From NCBI GenBank assembly GCA_001281695.1, contig LJIE01000001.1, forward strand, positions 2,999,521 through 3,063,520: a stretch of 64,000 nt of DNA, written 5' to 3'. The DNA comes from a bacterium 336/3 (GTDB taxonomy: Bacteria; Bacteroidota; Bacteroidia; Cytophagales; Thermonemataceae). Below are positions 8,912-15,729 of the stretch, piece by piece. Every line of letters starts with the position of its first letter. Position 1 is the first letter of the stretch. A program made the translations under genes and the position numbers. Below the pieces are notes generated by a model that was given only the letters and a program-made list of their open reading frames with translations, was not told the origin of the DNA and did no database searches.

Positions 8912-9319
8912 ATGGAAATTGATTATTCACAAACGTTTTATCATGGTACAAAAGCTCATTTGCAGGCTGGTGATACAATAGAAATAGGTTTCCAATCTAA
9001 TTATGGAGAACGCAAACAAGCTAAATATGTGTATCTTACAGCCACTTTGGATGCTGCTATTTGGGGAGCTGAACTAGCTTTAGGTGAAGGAAAAGGCAGA
9101 GTGTATGTTGTAGAACCCGCTGGCGTTATAGAAGATGACCCCAATTTAACGGATAAAAGATTCCCTGGAAATCCTACCAAATCATATCGAACGAAAAGTC
9201 CTCCTAAAATTGTCGGAGAAGTGACAGATTGGCAAGGACATAGCCCAGAACAACTCCAAACCATGCAAGAAAACCTCAAACGACTCAAAGAACTTGGTAT
9301 TGAAGCGATTGAAGATTAG
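8912..9319 (+). CDS. arr: NAD(+)-rifamycin ADP-ribosyltransferase (Arr family)
   Basis: A 135-residue protein with the Arr fold. The catalytic triad matches the spacing known for the mycobacterial enzyme: His11 in YHGTKA, Tyr41 in VYLTATLDAA, and Asp76 in the EDDPNLTDKRFPGNPT block, with intervals of 30 and 35 residues. Family members move ADP-ribose from NAD to rifamycins and so inactivate them. The gene sits among small stress-type genes without transposase or integron signals nearby, so it looks resident. Rifamycins or another small molecule could be the natural target. Confidence 0.88.
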   Translation: MEIDYSQTFYHGTKAHLQAGDTIEIGFQSNYGERKQAKYVYLTATLDAAIWGAELALGEGKGRVYVVEPAGVIEDDPNLTDKRFPGNPTKSYRTKSPPKIVGEVTDWQGHSPEQLQTMQENLKRLKELGIEAIED

Positions 9320-10473: not shown

Positions 10474-11499
10474 ATGGAATTATACTTAGATTCTGCAGAC
10501 ATCAAAGAAATTGAAGAAGCATTCAAATTGGGCTTCTTGACTGGGCTTACTACTACTCCTACATTTATGCACAGAGAGGGCGTTACGGATGTGGATGCTA
10601 TCATGCTTAAACTTTCCAAAATAGTTCCTGTATTGCAAGTAGAAGCTCTTGGCGATAATGCTGATGAAATTGTAAAAGAAGCAAAAAGATTGGTTAAAAT
10701 TGGTTTACCTAAAGACAAAACGGTTTTCAAGATACCTGTATCTTTAGAGGGTGTAAGAGCTTGTAAACGTCTTACAGATGATGGTTTCATGGTAAACATT
10801 CACTTGGTTTATACTTTACAGCAGGCTTATATGGCGATGGCTGCTGGGGCTACTTATGTTTGCCCTTTGGTGGGTCGTTTGCAAGATCAAGGACATGACG
10901 CTTTGAGCTTGGTACAACAATGTGTAGAAGCTGTCAATTATTATGGTTATAACTCAAAAATCATGTTTTCTTCTGTTCGTAACGTGGAGCATGTACGCAA
11001 CGCTATCAATGTGGGTGTACATACTGTTACTGTGCCTTGGAAAATCATGAAGCAACTTACTGAAAACCACTTCACTACATTAGGCACACAACAATTTGAA
11101 GAACATACCAAATTGATGACTAAGAAAGTGAAAGAGATTATCCGTAAAGATAACCCTATCGTAAAACTTTCTGAAACTGTATTAGATGCTGTGGTACAAA
11201 TGACAGAGTCTGGTTTTGGAGCTGTTTCGGTAGTAGATGCTAAGAAAAACTTGGTAGGTGTTTTCACAGATGGCGATTTACGCAGACAGTTGAAAGAAAG
11301 TGGAAAAGATTTACTCAAGAAAAAAATGAGTGATTTTGAATATAAAACTCCTCTGACTATTGATTCTGAGGCTCTTTTAAACGATGCCTTACAAATATTT
11401 AAGCAGAAATCAGTAGATAACATCATCGTAACAGAGAAGGGAAAATTGAAGGGAATGGTTGATGTACAAGATTTTATTGATTTAGGTTTAATGGGTTAA
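10474..11499 (+). CDS. Transaldolase/fructose-6-phosphate aldolase-like domain fused to a CBS pair
   Basis: A 341-residue two-part protein. Residues 1-220 form a transaldolase-type barrel (MELYLDSADI, Schiff-base Lys86 in FKIPVS, Arg135, SS at 166-167), the length of fructose-6-phosphate aldolase. Residues 227-340 form two CBS motifs, with GVFTDGDLRR (262-271) and GMVDVQDFIDLGL, the style seen in KdsD/KpsF sugar-phosphate isomerases. The usual TTNP site motif reads TTTP (residue 28 is Thr, not Asn) and the strand equivalent to NxT reads NIH (His110), so substrate or reaction may differ. CBS pairs usually bind nucleotides, which suggests allosteric control. It is monocistronic with a strong terminator after it. 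Confidence 0.85.
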   Translation: MELYLDSADIKEIEEAFKLGFLTGLTTTPTFMHREGVTDVDAIMLKLSKIVPVLQVEALGDNADEIVKEAKRLVKIGLPKDKTVFKIPVSLEGVRACKRLTDDGFMVNIHLVYTLQQAYMAMAAGATYVCPLVGRLQDQGHDALSLVQQCVEAVNYYGYNSKIMFSSVRNVEHVRNAINVGVHTVTVPWKIMKQLTENHFTTLGTQQFEEHTKLMTKKVKEIIRKDNPIVKLSETVLDAVVQMTESGFGAVSVVDAKKNLVGVFTDGDLRRQLKESGKDLLKKKMSDFEYKTPLTIDSEALLNDALQIFKQKSVDNIIVTEKGKLKGMVDVQDFIDLGLMG

Positions 11500-11514
11500 A
11501 ACGATTAACTACTG

Positions 11515-11553
11515 CTTTCCGAAAGGCTCACCCCTTTCGGAAAGTCCCTTTTT
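11515..11553 (+). terminator. Intrinsic terminator after the transaldolase-CBS gene
   Basis: Perfect 12-bp stem CTTTCCGAAAGG (11515-11526) / CCTTTCGGAAAG (11533-11544) with a six-base loop, followed by TCCCTTTTT. Confidence 0.82.
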
Positions 11554-14781: not shown

Positions 14782-15729
14782 ATGGAGAACAACATCGAAA
14801 CTCTCTTAAAAAAATTAGAAGAAAAATACAGTCAAACAGGTCAAAGCCTTGCTGCCAATCTGGAAGGACTTTTATACAACGATTATTTAAAATATTGGGA
14901 TTACATTCAAGTAGAAACACTCTTAACGCTTCAAAAACCTAAAACCAGCATTCCTGATGAAATGATTTTTATCATGTATCATCAAATTACAGAATTGTAT
15001 TTCAGACTTATCTTGTGGGAAATAGAACAAATTGGTAATCAAAGAGATATAGAAGCAGCTTGGTTTTTAGATAAAATTCAACGCATAAACAGATATGTAG
15101 AAACTCTTGTAAATTCGTTTGATGTGATGAGTGTAGGCATGGAGGCAGAACAATTTAAGAAATTCAGAATGGCATTGTTACCAGCCAGTGGATTTCAGTC
15201 TGCTCAGTTTAGATTGATTGAAATTTCATCTACAAATTTTATAAATCTTACCCATCAAGATTTTAGAGATAAGTCCAATGCAAATACCACTATTCCTGAG
15301 ATTTATGAACATATTTATTGGAAACGTGGGGCAACAGAAACAGCCACAGGCAAAAAAACGATTACACTTCAGCATTTTGAAGAAAAATATTCTGAAAGTT
15401 TTATGCAATGTGCTTATGAGTACAGAGATAAAAACATTTGGGAGAAATATAAAGAATTGGAGAGAAAAGGTGTAGATGTATCAGCAATACAACAAGCTCT
15501 TAGGAATTTTGATTACCTATTCAATGTAGAATGGGCTTTATCTCACTTAAAATCGGCTGTGAGATATTTGAGAGAGAGTGGCAAGCCAATTGATGCCACA
15601 GGAGGCACCAACTGGACAAAATACCTCCCTCCCAATTTCCAAAGAATTATATTTTTCCCCTCATTGTGGACAGAAGAAGAACGCCAAGAATGGGGACGAA
15701 AAAAAGTAGAAGCTTTGTTGCAATCCTAA
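14782..15729 (+). CDS. kynA: Tryptophan 2,3-dioxygenase family protein
   Basis: A 315-residue haem dioxygenase. The distal histidine is His67 in MYHQITELYFR, Arg144 in SGFQSAQFRLIE matches the carboxylate-binding arginine of the family, and His255 in WALSHLKSAVRYL fits the proximal haem ligand, followed by the DATGGT loop (272-276 region). Family members open the indole ring of L-tryptophan to N-formylkynurenine. No other kynurenine-pathway gene lies nearby. Divergence from the canonical GTGGS loop leaves room for a related indole substrate. The stop codon lies inside the terminator hairpin. Confidence 0.87.
   Translation: MENNIETLLKKLEEKYSQTGQSLAANLEGLLYNDYLKYWDYIQVETLLTLQKPKTSIPDEMIFIMYHQITELYFRLILWEIEQIGNQRDIEAAWFLDKIQRINRYVETLVNSFDVMSVGMEAEQFKKFRMALLPASGFQSAQFRLIEISSTNFINLTHQDFRDKSNANTTIPEIYEHIYWKRGATETATGKKTITLQHFEEKYSESFMQCAYEYRDKNIWEKYKELERKGVDVSAIQQALRNFDYLFNVEWALSHLKSAVRYLRESGKPIDATGGTNWTKYLPPNFQRIIFFPSLWTEEERQEWGRKKVEALLQS

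Follow-up and report, generated by a model that had tools for sequence, protein, structure and literature searches.

The gene at positions 10474 to 11499 on the plus strand of the window (the whole 64,000-nucleotide stretch of DNA that was analyzed) encodes a transaldolase-fold barrel fused to a KdsD-type CBS pair, here called TAL-CBS. Based on its genomic context, we propose, with a probability of roughly three in four, that TAL-CBS is a nonhomologous replacement for KdsD that supplies arabinose 5-phosphate (A5P) to KdsA in the synthesis of Kdo or 8-amino-Kdo (Kdo8N). The pathway to Kdo, a key outer-membrane sugar, is usually essential and starts with the formation of A5P.

The open reading frame and its translation give a protein of 341 amino acids plus a stop codon. 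Residues 1 to 213 (10474 to 11112, plus strand) make up a transaldolase/FSA-type barrel, as defined by Pfam PF00923, alignment, and the predicted model; the TAL_FSA match itself spans residues 3 to 230 (4e-38). Two CBS motifs (PF00571, 2e-18) lie C-terminal to this domain, and residues 213 to 341 (11110 to 11496, plus strand) form a CBS pair that Pfam and the best PDB matches identify as KdsD type. The joining of such a barrel and such a pair in one protein, as read in the first-pass annotation, was confirmed by the open reading frame, both Pfam families, and the KpsF/GutQ/KdsD models. Structure prediction, which that annotation had suggested, yielded a full-length model with a pLDDT of 88 and a pTM of 0.59, in which the domains are good and their relative placement is uncertain. 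The barrel of this model is closest to TalC folds (1vpx and 3r8r, TM about 0.88 on the target; Foldseek E value, 4e-20). The gene is preceded by a 146-nucleotide gap and is directly followed on its 3' side by an intrinsic-terminator-like hairpin (11514 to 11545, plus strand; a 13-pair stem and then a T run), and TAL-CBS therefore looks monocistronic in the window; the hairpin is a consensus match only, with 1 found versus 0.6 expected. The plus strand of the window also carries genes for an Arr-type rifampin ADP-ribosyltransferase (8912 to 9319; PF12120, 1.4e-48) and a tryptophan 2,3-dioxygenase (14782 to 15729; PF03301).

TAL-CBS was aligned to Escherichia coli FsaA and TalB (sequences from MG1655) and to the TalC of its own genome. 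The residues that define the TAL/FSA family are retained, namely, the Schiff-base lysine (K86), the aspartate equivalent to Asp6/17 (D6), and the phosphate arginines (R135 and R169). At the donor and water sites of F6P aldolase and TalC, the asparagine (N28 in FsaA, N35 in TalB) is T28, the threonine (T109 in FsaA, T156 in TalB) is H110, and the aromatic residue (Y131 in FsaA, F178 in TalB) is L132. The position of A129 in FsaA and S176 in TalB is C130, with threonine in 7 rows, and E57 and R169 follow the transaldolase pattern and not that of FSA, residue 169 being lysine in FsaA. Across 87 aligned rows, D6, T28, E57, K86, N108, H110, L132, R135, S167, and R169 show zero variation, indicating that the substitutions are real and conserved. 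The first-pass annotation had reported that Lys86, Asp6, and Arg135 are kept and that Asn28 is changed to Thr and the NxT strand to one with His110. The comparison with FsaA and TalB that it suggested upholds these calls, and the possibility that Asn28 and the threonine are conserved after all falls away, both being replaced. The changes at C130 and L132 had been missed. In FSA, Asn28 and Asp6 contact the donor, while Gln59, Thr109, and Tyr131 hold the catalytic water and Tyr131 acts as the proton shuttle (PMC13259622). Since the water and shuttle positions are replaced and the lysine and arginines are kept, the proton-transfer site has been rebuilt with the Schiff-base and phosphate sites intact.

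These data bear on whether TAL-CBS is an ordinary pentose-phosphate transaldolase or F6P aldolase that has acquired a CBS sensor, with A5P coming from another isomerase. Its family membership and the conserved Lys86, Asp6, and Arg135 would fit such a role. However, N28, T109, and Y131/F178 are all replaced without variation, and the barrel scores 160.6 bits with TIGR00875 (fsa_talC_mipB), below the cut-off of 245.95 for the F6P aldolase/TalC equivalog. The same genome also encodes an ordinary TalC with the TTNP motif, which covers the basal transaldolase. An ordinary enzyme would in addition leave the Kdo linkage and the exclusion of KdsD, described below, unexplained, and we consider this explanation decidedly improbable.

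Among NCBIfam models, those for KpsF/GutQ/KdsD outscore every other CBS protein on the CBS part of TAL-CBS. TIGR00393 (KdsD/KpsF) matches through the CBS part alone (model positions 152 to 267) with 72 bits against a cut-off of 203.7, and the SIS catalytic domain of KdsD/KpsF is absent. By both sequence and fold, the best PDB matches are the CBS pairs of the A5P isomerase KdsD in 4o9k and 3k2v, which also rank first when the pair is predicted alone (pLDDT, 89); we take both structures to have been solved with CMP-Kdo. The first CBS copy carries GVFTDGDLRR, and GxFTDGDxRR is conserved across the aligned rows. In the second CBS motif (residues 328 to 333), TAL-CBS has D-x-Q-D, whereas KdsD has a conserved H-x-H-D. 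The ligand may therefore be CMP-Kdo or a variant, and the sequence change points to a change of ligand, for example, to CMP-Kdo8N. TAL-CBS is probably feedback controlled by CMP-Kdo or CMP-Kdo8N at this KdsD-type pair. Gating by AMP or ATP, the nucleotides named in the first-pass annotation, received no specific support.

A scan of GTDB genomes identified 80 TAL-CBS loci, all of them approximately full-length matches with about 63 to 87% identity, in Bacteroidota, Desulfobacterota, and a few others. The fusion is rare at the phylum level; the search across Bacteroidota suggested in the first-pass annotation found it in 5 of 296 genomes. The nearest named organism with TAL-CBS is Raineya orbicola (Cytophagales). 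The possibility that the gene in the window came from a prophage or a plasmid was considered and rejected, as 72,556 plasmid records contained no full-length match and the viral matches are without CBS motifs.

To describe the gene neighborhood, neighboring open reading frames were clustered at 79 readable loci. Kdo-pathway genes were found near TAL-CBS in 58 of these, with a KdsC-like HAD protein in 52, KdsA in 40, and KdsB in 14; KdnA, an aminotransferase, and KdnB, an iron alcohol dehydrogenase, were each present in 23. These are minimum values, since a large number of contigs stop near TAL-CBS. KdnA and KdnB, which function in Kdo8N synthesis, were identified via 5k8b (8e-121) and 5k8c (5e-128), respectively. 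KdsA lies directly upstream and the HAD gene directly downstream of TAL-CBS in 25 loci. In the window's genome, KdsA (L087), HAD (L088), and KdnB (L113) are scattered away from TAL-CBS. TAL-CBS is linked to the Kdo gene set and co-occurs with KdsA and KdsB and, as judged from this context, belongs to Kdo (8-amino-Kdo) synthesis, where it stands in place of KdsD. The expectation of a Schiff-base enzyme for sugar phosphates that has a new role and a CMP-sugar gate at its CBS pair holds in its direction; the pathway had not been identified in the first pass.

Using the KpsF model, no SIS-domain KdsD was found in the window's own genome, which returned CBS-only matches and contains KdsA above the TIGR01362 cut-off. 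In the sample of 296 Bacteroidota genomes, KdsD was present in 211, and all five genomes that carry the fusion lacked it. Within the window's class, 67 of 73 genomes have KdsD only, 5 have the fusion only, none has both, and 1 (G041) has neither; G041 has no KdsA above the cut-off either. Expressed as a comparison, KdsD occurs in 0 of 5 fusion genomes versus 67 of 68 others in this class (Fisher p = 4e-7) and, in the Desulfobacterota class of one fusion-bearing genome, in 1 of 6 fusion genomes versus 128 of 140 others (p = 7e-5), with the p-values serving as guides because related genomes are not independent. KdsD was absent from 49 of 52 distinct fusion genomes tested, in a search that single-domain or other unrecognized A5P isomerases could escape. 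G305 and G311 have KdsD as well as the fusion, and both carry a canonical KdsA besides the fusion-linked KdsA subtype, so two systems or mixed bins are possible in these cases. G309 (L099 and L100; Desulfobacterales) has KdsD together with a KdsB-KdsA'-TALCBS-HAD operon and a single above-cut-off KdsA and is a true exception to the exclusion. Genomes with neither KdsD nor the fusion include 12 Desulfobacterota and 80 Bacteroidota, among which Kdo capacity was looked at in G041 alone. The occurrence of TAL-CBS in place of KdsD points to A5P as the product, and the genomic context argues strongly that A5P is what this enzyme would make.

The KdsA linked to the fusion is a subtype, KdsA', with the motifs KDNRS, xMQT, and KHxQF versus KANR, xRQT, and mostly KKGQF in canonical KdsA. 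KdsA' was located at L087:1501-2328 and in L007, L017-L083, and L097, and its substitutions relative to canonical KdsA (D60, M119, H138, and others) are fixed in 47 of 47 rows; in Aquifex numbering, the changes include A47D and R106M. Because of these fixed changes, the aldose substrate of KdsA' might not be exactly A5P, and TAL-CBS could instead make a different aldose phosphate for this divergent enzyme, giving a variant octulosonate in place of Kdo. The HAD partner (L088:1483-2199) could be taken in the same sense, since it has no Pfam match and is distant from KdsC (44 bits against a cut-off of 107); it probably acts as the Kdo8P phosphatase and would represent a new subfamily. Yet KdsA' scores above the KDO8P synthase equivalog cut-off and retains the lysine, asparagine, and arginine that have been named as A5P/PEP-site residues for Neisseria KdsA (PMC6650799). 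Apart from the five fusion genomes, the only member of the 296-genome sample with KdsA' is G249, where KdnA-KdnB-KdsA'-HAD-KdsB follow one another, TAL-CBS is absent, and KdsD is encoded elsewhere. KdsD thus serves this subtype in G249, as TAL-CBS would, under the A5P reading, in the relatives of G249, and this counters the view that KdsA' by itself proves another product. KdsB, KdnA, and KdnB likewise imply Kdo or Kdo8N, and the phage homologues described below pair with a KANRT-type KdsA. We consider a variant octulosonate unlikely.

Three viral contigs encode a 213-residue, CBS-less TAL homologue in which the active site is the same (TTTP and NLH motifs). In two of them (L114:6001-7382 and L116:6001-7370), where the homologue shows 63 to 66% identity and keeps T28 and H110, a KdsA gene starts a few nucleotides after the phage TAL and belongs to a different lineage, with canonical KANRT and KKGQ motifs; the third contains the phage TAL at L115:6001-6639. 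That the phage TAL forms a two-gene unit with a KdsA unrelated to KdsA' again points to a role in supplying the KdsA substrate. No TAL gene was found near other phage KdsA relatives (L121-L125), and a Foldseek search of viral structures yielded no full-length match that was informative. In the tree, the phage rows fall outside the TAL-CBS rows with only moderate support, and a very long branch separates both groups together from TalC/FsaA, a placement compatible both with CBS loss in phages and with the pair never having been present. A phage enzyme without the CBS pair would fit an escape from host feedback. The phage genes also bear on a noncatalytic role for TAL-CBS as a regulator or accessory, for example, an activator or scaffold of KdsA'. 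CBS pairs are regulatory and TAL-CBS often adjoins KdsA', but Lys86, Asp6, Glu57, and both phosphate arginines are fully invariant, the active site is complete in the phage version, which has no CBS motifs, and the loss of KdsD would have no explanation. This role is hardly credible.

In the mechanism that we propose for A5P supply, Lys86 would form a Schiff base with the aldose or its two-carbon fragment, and A5P would be made or rearranged at C2-C3, the bond at which E. coli FsaA acts on A5P, and with the same (2S,3R) geometry. His110, with Glu57, would replace the proton shuttle formed by the Thr and Tyr of FSA, Arg135 and Arg169 would hold the phosphate, and the CBS pair would probably provide the feedback. 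The (3S,4R) products of FSA with DHA correspond to (2S,3R) products with glycolaldehyde, that is, to D-arabinose, so A5P on this barrel needs no new stereochemistry. FSA-type A5P synthesis requires glycolaldehyde, which is scarce in cells in its free form, and an internal route from ribose 5-phosphate (R5P) is therefore favored. The likeliest net reaction would be C2 epimerization of R5P to A5P, in which an imine at C1 would be followed by a C2-C3 retro-aldol/re-aldol sequence or by imine/enamine proton exchange via His110. The second choice would be the formation of A5P from glycolaldehyde and glyceraldehyde 3-phosphate (GAP). E. coli FsaA converts A5P to glycolaldehyde and GAP with a KM of 0.65 mM and is reported to prefer it over F6P (PMC6900487). 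Provided that A5P is the product, we lean tentatively toward R5P epimerization, while the union of glycolaldehyde with GAP and transfer from another sugar phosphate are each conceivable at somewhat longer odds. The most specific form of the proposal, a Schiff-base R5P-to-A5P 2-epimerase that is controlled by CMP-Kdo or CMP-Kdo8N by way of a CBS pair taken over from the displaced enzyme and that is feedback free in phages, is speculative.

If the A5P role is correct, TAL-CBS would be an undescribed way into the Kdo pathway, in which an unrelated enzyme carries the regulatory domain of the old one, that domain having moved from the displaced enzyme to its replacement. It would fill a gap in the pathway reconstructions of many Bacteroidota and Desulfobacterota and would assign a natural biosynthetic function to the A5P chemistry seen in the FSA family, which has no clear role in E. 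coli. KdsD has been discussed as an antibacterial target, and KdsD inhibitors would miss the organisms that use TAL-CBS. Searches of the open-access literature turned up no published description of a transaldolase-CBS protein or of a TAL that takes part in Kdo synthesis.

Among known systems, the KdnA/KdnB pathway to Kdo8N neighbors TAL-CBS in 23 loci, and KdnB is also present in the window's genome; descriptions of this pathway do not include TAL-CBS. E. coli FsaA shares the fold, the Schiff-base lysine (Lys85/86), Asp6, and the phosphate arginine with TAL-CBS but is only 26% identical and differs by N28T, Q59E, T109H, A129C, Y131L, and the added CBS pair. TalC, represented by Bacillus subtilis 3r8r and Thermotoga 1vpx, is closest in both fold and sequence (about 33 to 34%), and Glu57, Asn108, and Arg169 are as in TAL. 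Relative to TalC, TTNP is changed to TTTP, NxT to NxH, Phe to Leu, and Ser to Cys, and TAL-CBS has both the CBS fusion and the linkage to Kdo genes. KdsD/KpsF/GutQ, composed of a SIS domain and a CBS pair, resembles TAL-CBS in its CBS pair and in the A5P supply step proposed here, and the two occur in a mutually exclusive manner, as seen in the 49 of 52 fusion genomes without KdsD. They differ in the second CBS motif (H-x-H-D in KdsD and D-x-Q-D in TAL-CBS) and in the catalytic domain, which is a SIS isomerase in KdsD and a TIM-barrel Schiff-base aldolase fold in TAL-CBS.
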